Source: Antedon bifida (lineage: Eukaryota; Echinodermata; Crinoidea; Comatulida; Antedonidae). From it: a stretch of DNA of 64,000 nucleotides. Below, in pieces: positions 20,201-64,000 of the stretch (position 1 is the first letter of the stretch; each line of letters starts with the position of its first letter). The position numbers and the translations under genes were made by a program. The notes beneath the pieces are model-generated. The model searched no databases. It saw only the letters and a program-made list of their open reading frames with translations, and had not been told where the DNA came from. Where the stretch lies: the NCBI GenBank assembly GCA_963402885.1, contig OY727097.1, positions 12,400,001 through 12,464,000 of the forward strand. Reading direction: 5' to 3'.

Positions 20201-23200
20201 TCACATTTAAAAGGGTGCGCATCTATATTTACGTATTCAAATTTCTTCTACACGTTAATATGTTGTTCCTGAGATAATTTCCTTCTGAAATTGCTATCTA
20301 AGTGTTTCATTTTGATACCGTCGCCATGTTAAAAATTGGAATAACTGGCGGGTCCTGTAATTTCACCTATTCTACACTGTATGTAATATGTATACAGATT
20401 ATACTGTTTGCATGTATATACTATATGACACAAAATTGACAGAATTGAGCACTAACAGCATATCATATTCTTGACGTGCACGTGGCGTTTGTCGTGGTGC
20501 GGATAACTAACTCGTCAAAGTGACGAGTTTCATGTCTAGTTCCTTTTTTGAAATGCATGATATACTGCTTACCTAGTTTACTAGTGTTTATTCGTCATAC
20601 AAACATTAAAAAAATATTGCTGTTGAGTATTTTACAATTGTTTGTTACTGTAAACTATAGAGGGCAGAAATCATAATTTTGATTTCTTATTTTCAATAAC
20701 CAATCAATAAATCCTATTTTTATTTATTTCAATAGAAGTAACTCATCTTTAGTTTGTTCAAGTCAAGGGTCATGCATATGTGGGAAATGTGTGTGTAACA
20801 AGCGACAAGTAGGTGAAATATGATTTTATAGTTTTCTTATTGGGGCATATCAGTAGGTCAACTATTACAGTATGTACTGTGAGTATACTATAGTGGGTCA
20901 ATTAGAGGGAAAAAAAAGTTTTTAAAAATCTGTTGCTGATGATAATTGACAATTAGTAAGTGCAAACGATTAAAAATAATGTAACCCTATAAATAGAGAA
21001 TGTCTCTTATATAGGGTTTGAGAGGAGGAGACGAGACTCAAGGAGTCAATTTGTTATTTATAACTATTGTACGTGTTAAGTTTCTCTATTTCTAATAATG
21101 GTCAACTACTATACGATCACAGACACTGGTGTCATGACCAGTTAGTTAAAAAAATATATACAATCAATAAATATATATTACAGTTCAATAAGATTCAAGA
21201 TTCAAGATTCAAGAAATTTTATTTGTCCATAAAAATGGAAATTCACTTTGCTTGGTAGATTAAAACAACAATATTGCAACAATTTAAAACGTGCAGTATT
21301 ATAACAGATTAAAAATACAAGATAAAAAGTTAAAAATACTGTTAAAAATGTAAAACTATTTAAAAATTGCATTATCGTCTTACATTAGAATTAAAAATAT
21401 GAATACTATTTACAACGAAGGATTTTCTAGTTCTGCAAAGATTTGCTCTTGGAGGTCGTAGCCTAATACCTGATCTATTTAAGTTATAACAGTAATGTAA
21501 CGGATGAGTGGGGTCTTCCATAATATTGTTTACTTTTTTTAAAATACTCTTTTCATAGATAAATGAACAAGGCGTTAGATCAGCTTTAATAATACGTTGT
21601 GCAATTTTACGTGGTCTCTCAATATTTTTCTTATCATTTTCAGTAAAGTTACCATAAAAACATCCAATGCTAAAAGATAAAATACTTTGAATAATACTTT
21701 GATAAAATAGAATTAAAATAGTGTTATCAACTCTAATTTGCTTGAGTTTTCTGAGAAAGTAGAGCCTTTGAGATGCCTTCTTGGAAATCATGAGAGAGTT
21801 TGACTCCCAGTTTAATTTGTTGTCAATTATAGTACCTAAGTATTTGTATTGGGTTACTCTTTCAACCTTGGTTTCTTTAATAGTTATTACATTATGTTCA
21901 ACTGCGGTTTTACGAAAATCTATTATCATCTCTTTGGTTTTAGTAATATTAAGTATTAAGTTCATATCATCACACCAATTTACAAATCTTCCAACTTCAT
22001 TAACAAATTCATTTACATTATGCTTACTATCGCAAAGAAAACCACTAATTACAGTATCGTCAGCGTATTTTACAATATTGCAATCTTTACTTAAAATATT
22101 AAAACTACTTGAATAAAAAGAGAACAAAATTGAAGAAATAACACATCCTTGAGGAGCTCCAACACTGATAGATTCTTTGTTGGATAGGATACCATTGCAC
22201 TTAACCATCTGCGGTCTATTAATCAAAAAACTATATATAACTTTGGCGAGCTGAGGTGAGACATTAAAACTTAATAATCTATCAATAAAAATGTTATTAC
22301 CATATTAACGTGTTTTATAATGCCAAGCTAGATTATAATCCAACCCACTAATTTTGTGCCAAATGTTGTAGCCCGGATCCTGATTATATACTGGTCATAT
22401 ATTTTCTTGAATGCGATCAATATAATATAAAATGTATTATAAATAGAGCTTTTTTGTTATGATTAATATTTTTTTCTTTTTCAAGAGTCCTTTAGAAAAA
22501 ATCACAGGAAAGTTTTGCAACTGTGATAACTTCTCTTGTCGCAGAGATTCTGCTGACCTCATTTGTGGTGGTATGTTCAATTTTGTTTATATTTTCTTTT
22601 TCATGTGTTATTACCGAAAAAAGATTATTGCATTGCATAAACAGGTTAAACAGAACAAATTAGTTTAGTTACTGCAATAACTGCAATAAGATAATCAATC
22701 TCTGTAGAAAATTTATTATATTACTTCTCTGTGATTTTTTTTTTATTGTAAATTGCCTTTGAACATCATGAAAATGGTAGTATACGAATGAGGTATTTAA
22801 GAGCCATTGTCTGTAAGAATCAAAGAAATATCAAAAATAGTGGCAGACTCAAAAAAATGGATTTCTTTCAAATTTTGCACATGGCTATATATGTGTTGAG
22901 AGAAATCAAATATGAAGTATTTTTTATTTTACACATATATTTCCATGGCAACGGCCAAATTTGTGTTTTTGACAAATTTTGTCCTTTTTTAAGGTTTTTT
23001 AAAATGGATATTGGTACTACTTTGATGAACGATATTTTTGTTTTGTTCATTTAATTATAAAAAATAATTAGTGTATGCATAATAACAATGCATTGTGTAC
23101 CTGTTTCATATTTTTTTTTTTATTTTTGATTTCATACTTTGGGAGATACCATTTATTTAAAAAGGGGTGTTTTTCACTTTTTTTTAATTGTGAAATGCAA

Positions 23201-53521: not shown

Positions 53522-53557
53522 TCACGTACCTGACATCTCATGATGTCAGGTACGTGA
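53522..53557. repeat. Perfect 16-bp-arm hairpin
   Basis: TCACGTACCTGACATC, loop TCAT, then the exact complement. Lies about 170 bp beyond the stop codon of the Roco gene on its 3' side. Confidence 0.85.
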
Positions 53558-53730: not shown

Positions 53731-54017
53731 CTATTGTAGGTTTTCAATAGACACTTTAGACTGTTTCAGTAATTCTACAATATCCATTCTCTTAACTGCT
53801 CTCAAGGCTTTTATTACTTCCTCTCGTTGGTTCACATCTCTTCCTTGCTTACATCGCCATTGTACCAGTGATTCCATCGTTGCTTCTATAGTCAGCGCTG
53901 AAAACCTTCTCTCAGTTTGTGATAGCTCAACATCAGCAATACCAAGATGCCTACAGAAATTCTTCCAATCTGTCATCTTCTCAGAAATTATCAGGAAGTC
54001 CAAGTCTGTTAAGCATC
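53731..54017 (-). CDS. Roco gene last exon: death domain 3
   Basis: Acceptor TTTTTACAG, phase 1. Encodes CLTDLDFLIISEKMTDWKNF, LGIADVELSQTERRFSA, ESLVQWRCKQG and EEVIKALRAVKRMDIVELL and a short tail, then stop. The W in helix 2 and the L-x-x-A-L-R-x-x-x-R-x-D-I pattern are typical of death domains. Confidence 0.85.
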
Positions 54018-57000
54018 CTGTAAAAACACATTTAATTGACTTCATTAAATAAAATACATTTGGTTGTTTTTCTTCAAACATTGAGGTGCTAAAATGAAGC
54101 AACATTTTATTTATAGTGTCAGTAAGAATTATTATTTTCCTATCAGGATAAGGTAAAAATCATGAATAATGCATGAGCCTAATTACTAATTATTTCTATG
54201 ATAAAGAATATATAGCTGCCCTATTTCCTAAATATAAGTGAACATAACCCACTAAATATGAAATTTGTGTATGCATGACACTTACAAAATTAAAATACCT
54301 ATTTCACAGTTTCATCACAATATAACATAAACCAAATATTTTTTATGTTCCCCTAAAACATACTGAGTCAATATTTGATGTAATTTACTGATTGGTATGG
54401 CCAGTAAAAATATATTTGACATTTTGGTGATGAATAGGGAAAGGAATCATTCTGTTTTAGGTTTTCAGAGGCCTGTAAATTATAGATACACACAGTAACT
54501 ACAAATTTAATCACGTTTAAAAATGATGAAAATAAAAAGTAACATAGTGATTATTTCTACAGTGGTATCAGGTGTACATATAGCTTTTTTGTAAAATAAT
54601 AATCATTATCCACCTTGTCCTGATTGGTCTGTAAACACTGCAACTTCTAAACTGATGTCATCTTTGTATTCATGTCTTGTACACAGGCTATCAGCTAAAT
54701 CAACACGTCCCTGTTGTTTTAAAGCCTTGATCATTGTAGGTAGTTGATGTGCCTCTGCATGTTGCCAGCTATTTCTCCATTGAACCAAAACTTCCATCAT
54801 GGCATCTTCTACATGTTTGTTTTTGCCTGCAATTTTACCAACGTTTTCCCATTTGATTCCAAGTCGCACTGCTAGTCTTCTCCAACTTTCACCTAAATTG
54901 TCACAGATGAATAGGAGATCTTGGTCATCAAAACAAGCTGTGAAATAAGAAAAATAATATCAAGACAATGCTTTGTTAAAATTAATATATTATTGATTAA
55001 TTATATAATAAAGGAAATTTATTAAAAAATAAACATTTTAGAGATATTCTATTTTTATTGCCGGTAAGAATGATTTTTTTCCTAGGTTAAGGTAGAAATC
55101 ATAATAATCCATGAGCCTACAGTAATTATTAATTATTTTCTATAAAGAACTATAAGATAGCTGCCCTTCCAAAATATAATTAAGCACTCTAATCCTCTAA
55201 AAATTCAAGGAATTTCATATGTTTCAAACCCAGGGTTTTCAGTTTTATAGATTGCAGAAAACCATTTATGTATGATGCTTATATAGAAGCACTTAAAATA
55301 TCCTAATTAATGGCATAATCAACTTCATGAATTATTCAGGATTTCTGAAAATTATCGGAAAAAAGTAATGATGCCAGCATTCGGGCTATACATATGAATG
55401 CAATATACCTGAATGTTTGATAACCTCTGGCAGTTCATCCTTAATGTATTTCTCAAACTGCTTAGCAAGATCATTACGACCATGTTGTCTTAGTGCAGTG
55501 CATAATACTTGTTGCTGATTAGGGTCACTACCAATGTTGCTCCTCCAATGTTTCAGCATCTTTGCTGTAGCTTTATCTGTCTGCTTTTCATTATCAAAAA
55601 TAGCTTTCACTTTAGACCATGTAAGCCCCAAACGAACACCAAATCGCCTGCAGGAAAGATCCATCTCTCTGGACACATTGTCAATAGTTAGGTCATCCAC
55701 ATAGTCTATATCAAAAAAACAAAATTATGAATCAATTATGTTTTTAATCCTTCACAATAGTAACTAAACATAATAATTATTTTATCATAAAATATACCTT
55801 TGTTATCCTTGACATCTGACATACTCCTTCGTTTACTAGATCCCTTAACTTTTGATTTTAGAGATGTTTTCCCCTTTGTCATTTTATGAGACTTGGCAAC
55901 AGTATCATCATCATCAGTATCAGATTCTGAATCTATGTTCTTCTGTCTACCAGCTTCTTTTGAGGTAGAAGCTACAATGACAATAAAACAACAAAATAGT
56001 GATAAAGTTAAACCAAGATGTACCATTGCTTGTTTTGTATTGTTATTTTATGTAGTATTACTCTTTTAGATATAATAATAAATTTGATTTAGCAAAGTTA
56101 TTTATGAATGCATTAGTTCGGCAATTCAGGAATTTGATTTAAAATTATGATCTTCAAAAATATACACTAATGATAATTTCTGTATTAGCTGGACTGAACA
56201 GTTTTTCATTTTCAATACTTTACCATCAACTTGTTGGCATATATCGCGCTGTATAGTGTTGATATTAATTTATATCTGTGAAAGTCAATTACATTCAACT
56301 ATCACATGGTTTAAACATTAAAAACCTAGAATTGTAGTGTACGATGATGATGACAATCATTCATAATAAATCTTTCACCATCAACCGCACCTTTGTTATC
56401 CTTCTTGGAGGAAAATAATCTCTTCACGTTACAAGTGATTCTTTGAAGTCTTGAAGTGGAAGTCATAATCTAGAGCTATGCTTTGTTTTGTACTATCTCT
56501 CGATTCAGATGCTAAACAAAAATAAATTGAAAAGAAACATATAAAAACTATATAAACTAGATGTACATTTTCAATAATACTGTTTTTTTTTTTAAATTCT
56601 GTGGATTATGATACATGATGATGACACAGACTTATTATATAAATCTAAAAAAAAGTTTGTTTTTTTACTTCAATCATTTTATAGCATTTATATAATAGTT
56701 GAAAGATCGTAACTTTTTATAATGAAGTAACATACAATTAATATTAATTTTTACATGAATGATGCAAATAAAATGTCTTATATCCATGAAGTATACTTAA
56801 ATAAATAAAGAATTGTTAACTTGAATCCTCATTCATTTTGTTTGGGTTTAGTTTTTTTTTATTTTACTTCATCTTAAAATGTTAACCTATAGCAGTGAAA
56901 CTGATGGATAATACAAACACAAATCCTCTACCTTTTAGTACAATGTCTCCAAACAGATTACGGTAACGTTTCACTTCCATTCCTCTGCTTTCACATGGCA

Positions 57001-60000
57001 ACACATCTTTGTCAAATTTGCGTATAACATGCATATGAGTATGTTCACCTTTCGAACCACACATACAAGGGATGTACATCTTTACTTTAACACCATGTGC
57101 ATTCTTCTCACTCAAAAAGTGCAATTCTTTTTCAAGAAAAGTTAGTACCTAGAAAATAGAATAATTTGATTTAGTTGATTATATTGCTACCCACAAAAAA
57201 AAATACATTAATATTTTACTTGTAAGTGTACATTACAGTATAACGAAATGTGTACCGTAATATTCAAAAGTTTTTATAAATGATCAAAAAAGTATTTACG
57301 CTTACAACTGAAATGCAACATATCCATTTTGTTTAGAATAGAAAAAAATAAAAGCTTGACATATTTGAATATTTGCACTGCAGCCTCAAGTTGTCCATGT
57401 TTAAATAAAGTAATTATTAATTATTGTTTAATTATCTTTAATCATCAAAATTGTTAATACTCTACATATCCAACTCATAAACATTATTTTTACATTAACT
57501 TACCTTCTTACAGATGCTAGGTTTTGGATCATCATCTTCAGGAAGGCCAGCAGCATTCATGATGTCTGTTCTAACTATTGTTGTCTGCAATATCAAAATC
57601 AATTTTTGTTTTATTTTCATTTCATAATTGTTTCTCTTTAATTTTTATTAAAAGCAATTGCCACTAAATCTATAATCTATATATAATCTATATATAATAT
57701 TATAACCATACAAGATGAATGATAAAAACACCTTTTAATGTAGATATTTGCTATATTTTCACCGATTTTCTGTCAACATGTTTTTGTTTGTTTGTCCTAT
57801 GTAATGCTTAGTGTGTTTTATTTATATTTATATTAATTTTTGTTCAGGGAAATATTGTACAAGCATTTGCTTTTTATTTTAGTCTCTTTCAATTTTACTG
57901 TTATTATTGTTATATCTATAATGGAGAATATAACTGAAAATCTGAAACTGATAATGTTTCTAATATAATTCTATCTAGACTGATATTTTTCTTAGAGGTA
58001 ATTAAACATTTAGAGTTATGTTCCTAAGATGATACTTTCTCAGGTTTAGTTTTTAGTCTTATAGCATCATTTTTATTAAGTCTACCTGAAACAAACGGCA
58101 ATTGTTGATGGTAGCTACATTTAGAACCACAAAATGATGGCCATCAATATGCAGTTCTACATGCTCATAGGACAATGTAGGCTCAACATCTTCCATTTGA
58201 AATTCCTCGATAAATTTAGTTGAAACACGTTGGAAGAGATCATCTGGTAGGTAGCCATCAAAGTCATGAAATAGAGAAATAGCACGCTTCTCTTCATATT
58301 TAACAGCCTTTGTATCATCACGTTGGGGCTTTAGGCGTGAAAGAACATAGAACGTTCGTCCAACATTCTATAGAAACAAAAATGGAACAAGAGTAGTAGA
58401 TGGAATATATGAAAAAATAATTGAACTAAATATTTTAAATAAAATGTAAATACCTCTTTACTCCTTTTTTCACACATTAACCCAAAGGTTTGCATCAGAG
58501 ACATAAAGAAGATAATCATCTCATCTGACTCATCCTTCCATATATGCCGCAACAGTCTTTCATCTAGTTTACCCCCATTTAAATTTCTCCAAAGCTGTTT
58601 CAGAGATGGCTAAACAAATATAAAAGCACAAGTGTAATTTGTCAATGCAACAAAGTAATTACTGTTCTTCTGGTCAGTAAAACCTCTTCTTTGGGACAAC
58701 CTTATTGAAACTTACTTGTGCAATGAATGAGGTTAACATCACAGCTAACATCTATTAAGGGGACACTTTGTTGGGTCTTCCCTTAATGGGAGTGCTACAG
58801 TAATACGTTTATAAGCATATATTTTAGTATTAGAATATAATAGAATTAATAAGATATAATTTCGTTCTCTGTGTGGCAGATATTACATTTTTACAGCTAA
58901 ATCCATCACACTGAAAAACAATGTTTACGTCTGATATTCACCAATGATTGACACCAATCAAAGAAGTGACGTTTGCAAACCTGAATGCTGGGATCTATAA
59001 CTGTGATGATTGTTTTGAACTTGTCAACTACTCCCATCAAATCTATAACAATTTTTTCTTTGAGGATCTTGTCATCTGGGTAGAACAGAATCTCACCGAT
59101 GTCGTGCAAGTATTCAAGAAACAGTTTTCTGTCAGTTATCTTACAACTAGCAAGTAAATCATTAATCTAAAAGGTAAATAAATATTATAATGAAAATGTA
59201 ATGAAAACAAAAATGTTGATTAATTACAAACTGGTTTTCTGTTGATGTTATCAATCATTTCGTTAATGTTGAAAGGTTGTTTATATAGGACATAATACTT
59301 TATCATGCAAGGTAGATTTGAAATCTGAAAGTTTCCTAACCAACAGTAAACTCAAGGTTTACCACTTACTTACTTCAATAATTGTTATTTCTAAACAAAA
59401 TGTTCATTTTGTTTATGGCACAATTGGTACTAAAACAATTGCACCATTCCTGTTTGATAAACATTTGTTGAAGATTCACCATAAACAGTCAATTAACACA
59501 GACAGCAAAGCAGGGATACTGTTAATGTTACTATCAATAACAAGTTTTTTTTTCACTTTAACACCATTCGATGCAGCAATAAAAAAAACAGGGTTTAATG
59601 CTTTAATGTGATTTAAGAATAAACAAATGTAATGGATGTTAAACACTTATTATTAAAACACATTCATCAATCAATTTTTTTATATAAATGTATCATATTC
59701 TAACCTCAGATGTTGGTAGATATAGTTTGTCTTTTCGTAACTGTTGTATTTCCAGCAGTACTTGTAGCCATTTGATTGGCAAAGTAAGAATCATCATCTG
59801 GACTAATTTTTGTATTTGGAGAATGATTTTAGAAGCACCGCTCTTTTCAAATGAGACACTGTTTTCAATGGTAAAGAGCTCTCCTTGATACACCATGTCC
59901 TCAAATGGTTTTCCTTCCAGGGCTTTCCAAAGTATATTCTCTATTGCTTTTACCTAAATTAAATAACATCACATTGTAATTAAACGTAAGTCAAGGGAAA

Positions 60001-63000
60001 ATTATAATTATACCAATATAAGAATTCAAATTAAAAATGTGTGCAAAATCATAGATATTTGTATACCTTTTATTTGTTTTATTATAGACCTAACTGATGG
60101 AACATTATTATATGAAACTACATATTGTTTCCAATGAATCAATTACAATATACAATTTTGTAATGTTTAATGAAACAAAATGTGATAACATATGTACCCT
60201 TTGTTGTCTTTCTTGTTCATTTTTACCAAGGCTCTCATAATGTGTACCAATCAGCATTATCTTGTTTTTCTGTCCTTTTCTTACGTTTACAAAAACCGAA
60301 CGAATCCAAAACAGAATGATCTCAAGATTTGTCATTCGATGTTCATACATTTTTCCCTAAATCACAAAGAAAATGAACAACATTTACATTTTAAATTCTT
60401 AAACAGGTAGTTTGAAAAACATTGTGGCAAATTATCTTATTATTGTGGTAATTATAGCAGCACCAATTTATATAGAAAAACAACACTATCATGGAAATGG
60501 AAATAACAATAATCATATATCAGGCACCTGCTATTTGCACAGTTTTTGTTAAGGTAAAGGATAACATGAAAGAAACATTTTTTTTATGTACAATTACATA
60601 GAACATTTGAAATTTGTAAAATATACTTACAGTTGTTGGATCACAAACTTTAGCTGGGGCATCAAGATCTTGATTCAGGTTAAATACCACACATACAACA
60701 GCATAAGACACCATGAATATCTATTAAAAATAATCATAATTATCAATATTAAAAACCGTTTATACACATGTGTCAGTATGCTGGCACAACTGATCATTTG
60801 ATACTTATTTTTGTCCTCACAAACTGCATGTTCACTTTGGAAACATTTACAATCTTAATCATTGGTTTAATAAATAATGAATGTTTTATTACATTCTCTC
60901 TCCCCATCTCTCCCCTTGCTATCCATCTATGCTAATATTACATTATGGTAGACATCAATGAATACTATTTTATTTAAAATCTCCCAAAACTGGACACCCT
61001 TCGGCTGGCAAAATATGTTTGGGTTTACAGAAATTCTGATATTCCAAATGTGTTATCATTGTTTCACATAACTTGTATTATTTTTGAAGTGTAAAAAATT
61101 GAATAAAATAAAGAAAGAAAGGAAGGTAAAAAGAATTTGGAACTTTTTTGACCTCAAGTCTGGTTTTGGTTTCTGGTAATTAGAGACTAGAGACTGAGTT
61201 GACTGTATTCAATTAAATGAAGATTAAAATAATTTATAATATTATAATAATAATAATTGTATTTTATAACTGATATACTGTTACCATATTTGATCAACAT
61301 ATGATTACATTTTTGTATTACCTTGGAGGTAGATTCTTACTACAAATCAAGTGAGTGTCAGTGCTGATATTGTAACAAGGCCAAAAGATTACTAGATTAC
61401 TAGATCCTGATCTCAACACAACCTCAGAAGGAGGTATATGTATTAATAAGTACAAACTCTTCAGTAAGGTGCAAGTATATCTTTATTCTATGGTGTCTCA
61501 AACTGAACTGTACAAAGTTATGGGTAAATGGTGATCAGTGATTGGCTATTCTATATGTCATGATAATATACTACCTCGGTAGTATTGTAACAGGAGGCAT
61601 ACTAAATTAAAGGCAAAACTAAGAAATTAGATAAATCAATACAATTTACCCGTTGTATCACATGGTATATAGGCTGCCCTCCAAAGTCCCAGATGTTCAT
61701 AACAAACTTGTTGCTATCCACTTTAGAGTCACCACCTTTTCTTACAGAACGAAGTTGGCTTTCAACTTTTTTCAAGAACCCTTTAGGAATTTGTGGTCTA
61801 TCAAGTTTTTCTTCATACACTGGTTCTGTTGTGATAAAATAATAATACACAATACAACAGTTTAATTCAATATCATTTCAACATTAAAAAACAAAATAGA
61901 AATCCATCATAATAAAGCTGTTCCTTTTTATTTAAATCTTAATAATTTAAAAAACAGACAAGACAGATGGAGAGTATATAGAGCGGGATGACACTATAAC
62001 TTTTTTGTTAAAAGAAAAGGTGTTTCCAATGCAATATTTAATTATCTAAATCTTATCCTTTCCAATTAATGGTTTAGTGATGAGTTTATTTGACCATATT
62101 GTACTGCAGTGTCATACAATATACAAATACTAGTATTAACTGTCAAAGTAACTTGCAAGATAATATGTTCATTAGCAGACACATGATTATAATCAAATTT
62201 CCGCTCCTTAAATCATTTAAATATTTCTGATATCATTACTATGTATGAACAGCACAATCAAGCACATTTCAAAATAAATATTTACCCTCTTTTTGTGGGC
62301 TTGGCATTGGATTTGAACTGTTTGATGTTTCAGCAAATTTGGCTTCCTGTTTTGATGTTGATGCTCCTGTGGGGTTTTTCTCTTTCTCATGTCTACTTTC
62401 TGAAAAATGTTCTGATATAATTAAAGATGACGCTTGTTGTAATAAGGAGCATAATAAATTAACATTTAATAATATCATGCTTTATAATCAAATTAACTTG
62501 ACAAGAACAAAGTTTAACTAAATTTGAATTAACTTTAATTAAAGTCTTTTACCAGATTTGGTTTTCTCCTTTGATGGTCCTGCTATTGATGTGTATCCTT
62601 CTGTATGGCGTGGACTTTTTAACATTTGTTTAACTGTGACATCAGTGACAGCATCCTGATACATGTCTAAAGCTTTTTAATTACAAAAATGTTAATAAAA
62701 TCATATATATTATAATTTACACTGTTACATACTGGTTTTTAAAAAGCATTGAAACCATTTGAATGATGTTGTTGCAATAATTGATCCTCCTTGGTCAAAG
62801 TGGATAACAATTACAGTATATGATATTAAAATGGCAGTTTACTTATTTGGTTAAAAAAATACAAAAACACATTGTGACATGACAAAGCATGTCACAGGGT
62901 GAATTTTAAAACATCTATTTTTATTTTTTTAACAGGAGCATGTATCTGAATAAAGTGAATACTTACAAATATCCTGTGTTGTTTCTTTCAACATTTGTTT

Positions 63001-64000
63001 GTTACTGGGATCTGGTGTACACACCGTTGTTTTAACCATTGCATCTGTTATTATATGCAATGGATTAAACCTATGGCAAAATGACATTATATAATTCAGA
63101 AAAGAATGTTTGCATTGATAAATCTAGAGACACAAATTAATTTGATGGTATACTGCAATTACATTGTTTTTATGTTGCATTATAATCTTATTTTAAACCC
63201 TCAACATACCCAGAACACTAAAGGGCCAAATACTTTAACCAAACAACAAATTTTAATAGTAAATGTTAATTATTAACTATATTTTTACTCTTTTACATTG
63301 TGATATTTAGATTATTTATGTTTAGATTACTTCTAAGGATCCTAATAAAAAGACGATAGTTAGGCTATGTGTATGGGTGACCGGAATACAAGCCTTGCTT
63401 TGATGGTCACTCTCATCGACATTTGCTATGTATTTTGATATTATTTTATGATGAAATAATAAAATTATTCAGGAAAATATTTTAAATGTCTTATTCTTAT
63501 AATTGATACTACAGTAACAGTTTAAGCGGTTTAATGAAATAGTTTTAAAAAAAATGTAACCACTTAAAAAAAACCAATAAGGTAACATCTATTAGGCCAC
63601 AATTTGACCATGGCTAATTTTTAAACATCACCAAACCTAAACTCAATGTCACCATATTTTGAGGTTCACAATATCCTGTTGAAAACAAATTGAAAGCATC
63701 TGTTAATGTTTCTATCAGTACCTTTTCACTTATCCTTACAGAGAGTATAGACCCTCAACAATGTGTGTTCACAGGAACTATGTGTGTACAGTTATATACC
63801 AATCAAACAAAAATACATCTACGCAATGAAATATATAGGACACTGTTCCCAACTGCAAGTAGCAAACAATCAATCAACAAAAAATGATATAATATAATGT
63901 GCTTACTCTTTTCTTAAAAGAGAATTGATAGTAGAAGTTTTTCCAACATTCTCAAGTCCTACAAAAATAGTTCTTCCTTGATTAAACTCTGTTTGTCCTT
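53731..64000 (-). CDS. Roco protein (Roc-COR GTPase) with three C-terminal death domains, 5' end off-window
   Basis: Cytoplasmic Ras-like GTPase scaffold of the Roco class joined to death-fold adaptors. Exons in transcript order: 64000-63907, 63070-62967, 62672-62553, 62399-62286, 61825-61650, 60720-60631, 60356-60198, 59953-59705, 59166-58981, 58609-58454, 58367-58086, 57584-57504, 57148-56932, 55971-55798, 55705-55409, 54937-54614, 54017-53731. Phase is continuous at every junction. Motifs: P-loop GLENVGKTS, switch II IWDFGGQ, base-binding LIGTHYE, then COR sequence (LPIKWLQVLLEIQQLRK, LHDIGEILFYPDD), a Cys/His-rich stretch, an acidic/basic linker and three death domains. DAPK-type proteins also combine Roc-COR with one death domain; three in tandem is unusual. 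What lies N-terminal (ankyrin, LRR or kinase) is outside the window. Confidence 0.85.
54614..54937 (-). CDS. Roco gene exon: death domain 2
   Basis: Acceptor TATTTCACAG, donor GTGGAT; 324 bp, phase 1-1. Encodes CFDDQDLLFICDNLGESWRR, LGIKWENVGKIAGKN, MEVLVQWRNS and MIKALKQQGRVDLADSL. If the weak donor is not used, the frame ends at TAA 54606-54608, giving an isoform without death domain 3. Confidence 0.85.
55409..55705 (-). CDS. Roco gene exon: death domain 1
   Basis: 297 bp, phase 1-1. Encodes DDLTIDNVSREMDLSCRRFG, LGLTWSKVKAIFDNEK, MLKHWRSNIG and LCTALRQHGRNDLAKQFEKY. Donor GTATAT. Confidence 0.85.
55798..55971 (-). CDS. Roco gene exon: acidic/basic linker
   Basis: 174 bp, phase 1-1. Encodes DSESDTDDDDTVAK followed by KMTKGKTSLKSKVKGSSKRR, a low-complexity charged stretch with a nuclear-signal-like basic cluster and possible casein-kinase sites. 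Links COR to the death domains. Confidence 0.75.
56391..56511 (-). CDS. Optional exon: alternative end of Roc-COR or start of a death-domain protein
   Basis: Acceptor TTTTGTTTAG, donor GTGCGG; 121 bp. Joined to the preceding COR exon it reads ASESRDSTKQSIALDYDF and stops at TAA (56431-56429). In another frame ATG at 56466-56464 opens MTSTSRLQRITCNVKRLFSS plus KKDNK and runs in phase 1 into the linker exon at 55971. Skipping it keeps the full Roc-COR-death frame. Confidence 0.45.
56932..57148 (-). CDS. Roco gene exon: COR C-terminal Cys/His-rich part
   Basis: 217 bp, phase 0-1. Encodes VLTFLEKELHFLSEKNAHG, MYIPCMCGSKGEHTHMHV and DVLPCESRGMEVKRYRNLF. CxC and HTHMH could bind a metal; this is inference. 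Confidence 0.8.
57504..57584 (-). CDS. Roco gene exon (small, COR C-terminal)
   Basis: 81 bp, phase 0-0. Encodes TTIVRTDIMNAAGLPEDDD and PKPSICKK. Donor GTAAGT. Confidence 0.75.
58086..58367 (-). CDS. Roco gene exon: COR C-terminal half
   Basis: 282 bp, phase 0-0. Encodes NVGRTFYVLSRLKPQ, FHDFDGYLPDDLFQRVSTKF and VELHIDGHHFVVLNV, the beta-rich second half of COR (the GYLPxxLFxR pattern is characteristic). Confidence 0.85.
58454..58609 (-). CDS. Roco gene exon: COR N-terminal winged-helix part
   Basis: 156 bp, phase 0-0. Encodes LKQLWRNLNGGKLDERLLRH, IWKDESDEMIIFF and LMQTFGLMCEKR. Confidence 0.85.
58981..59166 (-). CDS. Roco gene exon: COR LHDIG segment
   Basis: 186 bp, phase 0-0. Encodes LFLEYLHDIGEILFYPDD and IVIDLMGVVDKFKTII, the conserved L-H-x-x-G-x-I-L-x-F core of COR. 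Donor GTTTGC. Confidence 0.85.
59705..59953 (-). CDS. Roco gene exon: Roc-COR junction
   Basis: 249 bp, phase 0-0. Encodes AIENILWKALEGKPFED, GELFTIENSVSF and LTLPIKWLQVLLEIQQLRKD, matching the (F)xVEN/S and P-x-x-W motifs at the Roc-COR boundary. Confidence 0.85.
60198..60356 (-). CDS. Roco gene exon: Roc G4 motif
   Basis: 159 bp, phase 0-0. Encodes FWIRSVFVNVRKGQKNK and IMLIGTHYESLGKNEQERQQ. GTHYE stands at the place of the Roc base-specificity motif THxD, with Glu in place of Asp. Confidence 0.85.
60631..60720 (-). CDS. Roco gene exon: Roc central strand
   Basis: 90 bp, phase 0-0. Encodes IFMVSYAVVCVVFNLNQDL, the hydrophobic strand after switch II. Donor GTAAGT. Confidence 0.8.
61650..61825 (-). 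CDS. Roco gene exon: Roc switch II (WDFGGQ)
   Basis: 176 bp, phase 1-0. Encodes DRPQIPKGFLKKVESQLR and NKFVMNIWDFGGQPIYHVIQ. DFGGQ is the G3 motif of Roc domains. Confidence 0.9.
62286..62399 (-). CDS. Roco gene exon: low-complexity insert in Roc
   Basis: 114 bp, phase 1-1. Encodes Ser/Thr/Lys/Glu-rich ESRHEKEKNPTGASTSKQ and SNSSNPMPSPQKE. Placed by phase and splice sites; no domain seen. Confidence 0.6.
62553..62672 (-). CDS. Roco gene exon: insert in Roc
   Basis: 120 bp, phase 1-1. Encodes MYQDAVTDVTVKQMLKSP and YTSIAGPSKEKTKS. The VKQMLK block resembles NKQMLK in the next upstream exon. Confidence 0.6.
62967..63070 (-). CDS. Roco gene exon: insert in Roc
   Basis: 104 bp, phase 2-1. Encodes FNPLHIITDAMVKTTVCTPD and NKQMLKETTQDI. 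Donor GTAAGT. Confidence 0.65.
63907..64000 (-). CDS. Roco gene exon: Roc P-loop (runs off the window)
   Basis: Encodes GQTEFNQGRTIFVGLENVGK then TSTINSLLRK. GLENVGKTS is a Walker A (GxxxxGKT/S) for GTP binding. The exon's 5' end lies beyond 64000. Donor GTAAGC. Confidence 0.85.

Follow-up and report, generated by a model that had tools for sequence, protein, structure and literature searches.

Does a Roc-type GTPase with its COR domain run on, within a single gene, into a row of death domains, and what might such a protein do? The question is raised by a stretch of 64,000 nucleotides from the crinoid Antedon bifida (GCA_963402885.1, contig OY727097.1, positions 12,400,001 to 12,464,000; G000:C10:12400001-12464000), hereafter the window. 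A preliminary description had proposed that it holds a continuous, in-phase gene linking Roc (GLENVGKTS, WDFGGQ, GTHYE) and COR to three tandem death domains. The genome searched comprised 315.6 Mb in 27 contigs, and coordinates above 64000 continue the window numbering into the DNA to its right.

Roc-COR and death domains in one gene model

The spliced model has 24 exons on the minus strand, reaching from 85123 to a stop codon at 53731. All joins are in phase, with 24 AG acceptors and 23 GT donors, and this holds for each junction from Roc to the stop. Five ankyrin exons, a 36-base exon, an N-terminal death domain (DD0), seven Roc exons, six COR exons, a linker and three single-exon death domains (DD1 to DD3) make up the model, from which we read the order ANK(n)-DD-Roc-COR-DD-DD-DD (ANK, ankyrin repeats; DD, death domain). 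The domain search of the translated exons that the preliminary description had called for returned Roc (2.4e-9) and COR-A (2.8e-14), both above their Pfam cut-offs and with COR directly after Roc. It also returned ankyrin repeats ahead of Roc (Ank_2, 3.1e-22 for the five exons joined) and four death domains, and the continuous gene was borne out. By its defining domains the protein is a Roco.

Three death domains indeed lie behind COR, but the total is four, one of them N-terminal of Roc. DD0 lies outside the window (64926-64675, Pfam Death 3.9e-11), and behind COR follow DD1 (55409..55705, 1e-9), DD2 (54614..54937, 3e-10) and DD3 (53731..54017, 2e-8), the last exon, which includes the stop codon. 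All four exceeded the 22.6-bit cut-off of PF00531, scoring 34.7 to 43.4, and the six-helix death fold was seen for DD3. Chance matches were ruled out by four scores above cut-off on one strand, in phase and recurring in relatives.

It is very probable that Roc-COR and the three C-terminal death domains form one gene. Five predicted crinoid proteins (P0001, P0002, P0004, P0007 and P0013) join Roc-COR, or a COR part, to three death domains; the crinoid relatives used throughout are predicted gene models, not transcripts. P0001 reads Roc-COR-DDx3 and P0002 reads ankyrin exon-COR-DDx3, while P0038 (ANK-DD-Roc, the order also found at the front of our model) and P0024 (part of a death domain, Roc and COR) cover the other end. 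P0001 and P0002 agree exactly at the junction between DD2 and DD3, TDQSGQ-GCLTDLDF. The donor of DD2 in the window, GTGGAT, is a weak one; among the 25 exons of the same class in the genome (class B, below) GTGGGT occurs in 18 and GTGGAT in 7, the window included.

The outcome named beforehand as fatal to the one-gene description was a Roc-COR gene ending near 56430 with a separate death-domain gene behind it. That split finds some footing in an alternative linker exon (56391..56505, low edge approximate, located by comparison with P0002), which at 56505-56430 stops in frame with COR at a TAA. However, P0002 of Antedon mediterranea carries the sequence of this exon internally, between COR and DD1, five crinoid models fuse (Roc-)COR to three death domains, and the linker exon of our model (55798..55971; acidic then basic, phase 1-1) supplies an in-phase path from COR to DD1. 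On the crinoid models and the linker sequence inside P0002 we rejected two genes as highly improbable, and we read the alternative exon as one probably shifted out of frame in the window.

Within the Roc-COR module, G1 (GLENVGKTS) and G3 (WDFGGQ) are in frame, and the family profile aligns each of them with 3dpu and 4wnr. The Roc-COR fold was seen on the homolog P0004, in which the aligned rows cover residues 50-769 and exclude its death domains. At the G4 position the window has GTHYE and the relatives GTHLGS or GTHLNG, in place of NKxD/THxD; the latter is a feature of Ras-like GTPases in general rather than a mark of Roco proteins. The best solved relatives in the profile comparison, in which the DAPK1 Roc-COR was not included, were prokaryotic Roco proteins (C. 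tepidum, M. barkeri Roco2; 3dpu, 6hlu, 4wnr), followed by LRRK2. The crinoid protein has the Roc-COR fold in common with the prokaryotic Rocos, and the segment before the P-loop as well (PPEIVKQGKEAV in C. tepidum, VPEEILARGPDAV here). The prokaryotic proteins, however, carry LRR and no death domain, whereas the crinoid protein carries ankyrin repeats and death domains, and a long insertion stretches its G1-G3 span (GKTS to WDFGG) to 170 residues against about 40 in M. barkeri, as judged from the profile alignment. Pfam found no LRR, kinase or WD40 domain on the spliced protein, which has death domains instead of these parts of LRRK1 and LRRK2. In excerpts of two reviews, Roc-COR is a GTP-binding module considered to alternate between a monomeric and a dimeric state (PMC6337361, PMC4917528); by analogy, the predicted Roc-COR of the crinoid protein would switch with GTP and dimerise.

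The same excerpts describe DAPK1 as a kinase followed by ANK-Roc-COR-DD (PMC4917528, PMC6337361), and they agree with the earlier statement that DAPK-type proteins have a single death domain after Roc-COR (PMC6337361, PMC4917528). Ankyrin repeats ahead of Roc-COR and a death domain behind it, the arrangement excerpted for DAPK1 in PMC4917528, could suggest a divergent DAPK1 ortholog whose kinase was lost or lies further upstream and whose death domain was multiplied. The likeness goes no further than this order. Three C-terminal death domains of three classes and an N-terminal one before Roc stand where DAPKs have one, and by death-domain count the crinoid protein is not a DAPK. The extension to the right that had been proposed to find N-terminal domains uncovered the ankyrin exons and no kinase: the minus strand to 194 kb gave no HRDxKxxN or DFG..APE signature and no match with the metagenomic protein P0114, for which kinase domains are listed, in a weak exon-by-exon test in which split exons could hide one. 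With the closest solved relatives being prokaryotic Rocos, DAPK1 orthology is not supported and appears improbable; DAPK1, MFHAS1 and LRRK stood in none of the trees made.

Death-domain classes and their copies in the genome

In a tree built on 46 death domains, taken from the window gene and 15 crinoid proteins, three classes, A, B and C, separated with ultrafast bootstrap (UFBoot) values of 99/80/100; the class B value rose from 80 to 87 once a locus on contig C12 was added. The fragments P0003 793-822 and P0024 1-57 were excluded from the tree by length, P0024 being retained in the death-domain count below. The first C-terminal death domain is class A, the second B and the third C in both Antedon and Anneissia, so the order is probably older than the split between the two genera. 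DD0 groups with the N-terminal death domain of P0038, outside all three classes. Identity between the window's DD1 and DD2 reaches only 32-35%. Given three conserved classes, 'three different sockets' fits better than 'three equal copies'. The three internal death-domain exons, DD0, DD1 and DD2, share phase 1-1, a symmetry that eases their duplication and exchange.

To place the window gene among its copies, we queried the genome with DD2 and DD0. The DD2 protein gave 69 matches (112/112 candidates scored), and the top 25, with 75-100% identity and E-values no higher than 9.1e-48, fall at 22 loci, all on the minus strand, 13 on C10, the contig of the window (11.7-16.1 Mb), and 9 on C7 (12.9-17.8 Mb). 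Three of the 22 loci have two B exons each. Together with the many crinoid relatives, these copies agree with the expanded death-domain repertoire that had been supposed for this animal. Five more B-type exons (53-60% identity) lie on C12 (three), C11 and C10, and at C12:7.298 Mb the B-type exon and its flanks read A-A-B-C.

DD0 gave 46 matches (63/63 candidates scored). It stands 9.9-33.5 kb upstream of 19 of the 22 class-B loci and shares their strand, namely at 10/13 loci on C10 (82-100% identity) and 9/9 on C7 (44-51%); there was no DD0 match at the C10 class-B loci at 11.72, 12.61 and 13.15 Mb. The DD-...-DD-DD-DD build is therefore general in the family of this genome. Our confidence that the N-terminal death domain belongs to the gene, already high, rose further because of these genome-wide matches and is now very high. 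At nine loci with flanking sequence, including the window, DD1, DD2 and DD3 occur in order at eight; the ninth has DD2-DD2-DD3 on a stretch too short to reach DD1, with a DD1-like match immediately upstream.

The 22 close paralog loci share their orientation on both chromosomes, at spacings of 0.15-1.3 Mb, a pattern such as the copying of large blocks in a single direction might leave. C7:12-18 Mb has more DD0-like exons (38-53%) on its minus strand with no class-B match close by, and a wider family with a DD0-type N-terminal domain may exist.

Might the window gene be a copy in decay within an array that was amplified recently, yielding no protein of its own whether or not it is transcribed? 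Pooled ratios of non-synonymous to synonymous change (dN/dS) among the recent copies were 0.74 for DD1 (8 copies), 0.69 for DD2 (9) and 0.98 for DD3 (9), obtained with NG86 pooled over pairs at 9 of the 22 loci, with shared ancestry uncorrected and with L028, whose stretch does not include DD1, left out for that domain. Such values, near 0.7-1, point to weak constraint or diversification. Decay would also agree with the out-of-frame linker exon, the weak DD2 donor, the very long introns holding retroelements, and a number of copies whose linker or DD1 ends are broken: two of eight DD1 copies have a stop and no donor at the aligned end, and five of eight linker copies are open with AG/GT. Six of nine DD3 copies end a few codons before that of the window, and the tail of L027 differs. 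Against decay, all 24 exons of the window gene are open and in phase, the three death domains keep their order at 8/9 flanked loci, the window among them, and none of the 25 class-B exons has an internal stop, where 9.6 stops would be expected under neutrality (tree length from the same 25 exons, transition weight 3). One copy, L033, has a 9-base deletion, and its apparent end stop is the alignment overrunning its donor. We regard decay as unlikely.

Relatives and the proposed role

The closest proteins are from A. mediterranea, 71-92% identical over the aligned stretches (P0001, P0002, P0024 and P0038, the last two assigned to the species by inference), followed by those of Anneissia japonica (42-55%). 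Our own hidden Markov model (HMM), which misses at least the one death domain that Pfam reports in P0034, counted 12 death domains in one of 44 crinoid relatives, three in five, two in nine, one in six (one of them a fragment) and none in 23; several of these models are partial. The protein with 12, also by Pfam, is A. japonica LOC117110565 (P0003), a model predicted from a 104-kb contig, with the order A-B-C-A-B-B-B-C-A-B-B-C; it belongs to the same family, with COR followed by death domains, and differs by their number. The order of domains, sought in other Roco proteins as had been suggested, was thus recovered in crinoids (Antedon and Anneissia). In the coral Oculina patagonica, P0042 has Roc-COR followed by a death domain as in the crinoid protein, but only one (5.4e-5) and with HEPN ahead.

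Other relatives carry different domains. After the same GGPLPYIEMTSS exon, where the window gene has its N-terminal death domain, P0008 has a different segment, DED-like by reading, for which Pfam gives no DED. Among crinoid proteins, P0035 joins Roc to a caspase (1.2e-49) and P0034 combines it with DED, macro and COR as well as a death domain; the relative P0029 joins it to DED. Annotated, unnamed relatives stand in public protein sets, and such sequences are not new to databases; among the papers listed from the open-access literature searched, we found neither multi-death-domain Roco proteins in crinoids nor tandem-death-domain Rocos.

Building on the gene structure, the domain identities, the folds (Roc-COR on the homolog, and DD3), the A-B-C order and the family expansion that the analysis established, we lean towards a cytosolic sensor or scaffold of cell-death or innate immune signalling, ANK(n)-DD-[Roc-COR]-DD(A)-DD(B)-DD(C). 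The ankyrin repeats would receive the input, Roc-COR would switch under GTP control and form the dimer, and death-fold adaptors or caspases would be recruited by the death domains, of which one precedes Roc-COR and three distinct ones follow it. The DAPK1 death domain binds partners, according to the review excerpts (PMC6337361, PMC4917528); here each class may have a partner of its own. One switched dimer could present up to eight death-domain sites, a multivalent death-fold scaffold.

The immune or cell-death role is suggested by the relatives that join Roc to caspase, DED or macro, and by the family expansion. Parallels elsewhere lend it indirect support. As excerpted in PMC4104024 and PMC11378527, Trichoplax has ROCO proteins with CARD or death domains, at least 17 genes, and so likewise joins animal ROC-COR to death-fold domains. 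Excerpts of PMC9334734 report ROC-COR in TLR-, MyD88- and TIR-type proteins of Aplysia, one of them MyD88-like; these too fuse ROC-COR to immune adaptor domains, but are TIR-based. The bacterial AP-GTPase-COR conflict system, in the part of PMC8195603 available, combines a Roc-type GTPase and COR with variable effector domains, and differs in its LRR heads, its other effectors and its prokaryotic setting.

The protein might also be pictured as a structural scaffold of the membrane skeleton, of polarity or of trafficking, its death domains doing no more than bind partners, like those of ankyrins or UNC5, and having no tie to cell death. The relatives that pair Roc with caspase and DED argue against this picture, as does the lineage-specific expansion, which is usual in immune families, and we find it doubtful. 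Returning to the sensor or scaffold of cell-death or immune signalling, a broader version can be put forward tentatively: crinoids possibly use Roc-COR where other animals use NACHT/STAND switches, in a large family of ankyrin-headed GTPase receptors. The A-B-C array (to 12 domains in one Anneissia model) would then be a covalent, pre-built platform replacing FADD/RAIDD/MyD88-type adaptors, and the effector ends (death domain, DED, caspase, macro) would be swapped via symmetric phase 1-1 exons.

Death-fold signalling normally runs via separate proteins that meet through one death domain each. Three classes in fixed order behind a GTP switch would put the stoichiometry and order of assembly into one chain, and a natural series of 1, 2, 3, 4 or 12 domains would suit the question of covalent-seed nucleation of death-domain filaments. 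Crinoids would gain a testable candidate receptor family, and animal Roco proteins would stand beside the prokaryotic Roc-COR conflict systems.

Two further Roc proteins have other partners: the crinoid P0010 is fused to TAZ and KIX domains, and in the brittle star Amphiura filiformis, reached by a profile search outside crinoids, P0037 joins Roc-COR to a Schlafen-type domain. A second Roc family in the A. bifida genome has about 30 copies on C15 (13.46-13.55 Mb on the plus strand; 17.20-17.33 Mb and 11.74 Mb on the minus strand), with further sites at C8:26.33 Mb and C10:17.91 Mb. On C15 these are mostly open frames of about 920-1030 codons in tight clusters, and since both Roc halves lie inside single frames the family is apparently intronless, unlike the many-exon window gene.

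Exon layout and surrounding sequence

All exons of the model lie on the minus strand. The five ankyrin exons (85123-85025, 81957-81862, 73302-73207, 68138-68022 and 66546-66456) and the 36-base exon (65288-65253, placed via the proteins of relatives) lie to the right of the window. A short open reading frame (ORF) at 66943-66719 was dropped from the model for want of a Pfam match. Roc begins with the G1/P-loop exon (63907..64000, its start at 64072 beyond the window), which P0024 and P0038 match at 96%, and continues with an exon beginning EFNPLHIITDAM (62967..63070), supported by comparison with A. mediterranea. The long G1-G3 segment comprises two phase 1-1 insertion exons, one at 62553..62672, whose acceptor was picked by the A. 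mediterranea sequence ISLDMYQD, and a Lys/Ser/Glu-rich one at 62286..62399, whose acceptor was picked by TKSESRHEKEK of P0024. There follow the G3 exon with WDFGGQ (61650..61825, supported by the Pfam Roc match on the spliced protein), an exon beginning IFMVSYAVVCVVFN (60631..60720) and the G4-region exon with GTHYE (60198..60356).

The exon at 59705..59953 holds the end of Roc and the start of COR-A, supported by the Pfam COR-A match, and the exons at 58981..59166 and 58454..58609 carry COR-A onwards by Pfam and the exon model. The second half of COR is encoded at 58086..58367, a region that in the homolog P0004 aligns with LRRK2 and CtRoco, and then at 57504..57584; the last COR exon (56932..57148), Cys/His-rich and running from IPCMCGSKGEHTHMHV to LPC, is conserved in P0001 and P0002.

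No start codon was found for the gene model. Further ankyrin-like phase-0 exons with AG/GT sites lie at 113088-112990, 146281-146183 and 158645-158547 as candidates, and if they belong the gene would span more than 100 kb. The next receptor-like ORF on the same strand, judged by eye, lies at 167.7-168.8 kb. The reading frames of the ankyrin exons at 113088, 85123 and 81957 continue into alike intron sequence downstream, from which the ankyrin part seems to be growing by recent exon duplication.

The introns of the gene are very long and hold retroelements. In one of them, at about 73600-77950, a unit of about 1.54 kb is repeated in tandem, with three nearly identical copies that contain repetitive ORFs. 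A minus-strand ORF at 100631-101233, which encodes a RING finger (Pfam zf-C3HC4, 3.4e-6), adjoins a reverse-transcriptase ORF; the RING-finger ORF looked RAG1-like by eye, and Pfam gives no RAG1. Just past the 3' end of the gene, at 53522-53557, a perfect inverted repeat with 16-base arms (TCACGTACCTGACATC / GATGTCAGGTACGTGA, found by eye) is perhaps a small transposon. The two window ORFs of at least 180 codons, at 21372-22304 on the minus strand and 2306-2878 on the plus strand, look retrotransposon-like by eye (reverse transcriptase, endonuclease).

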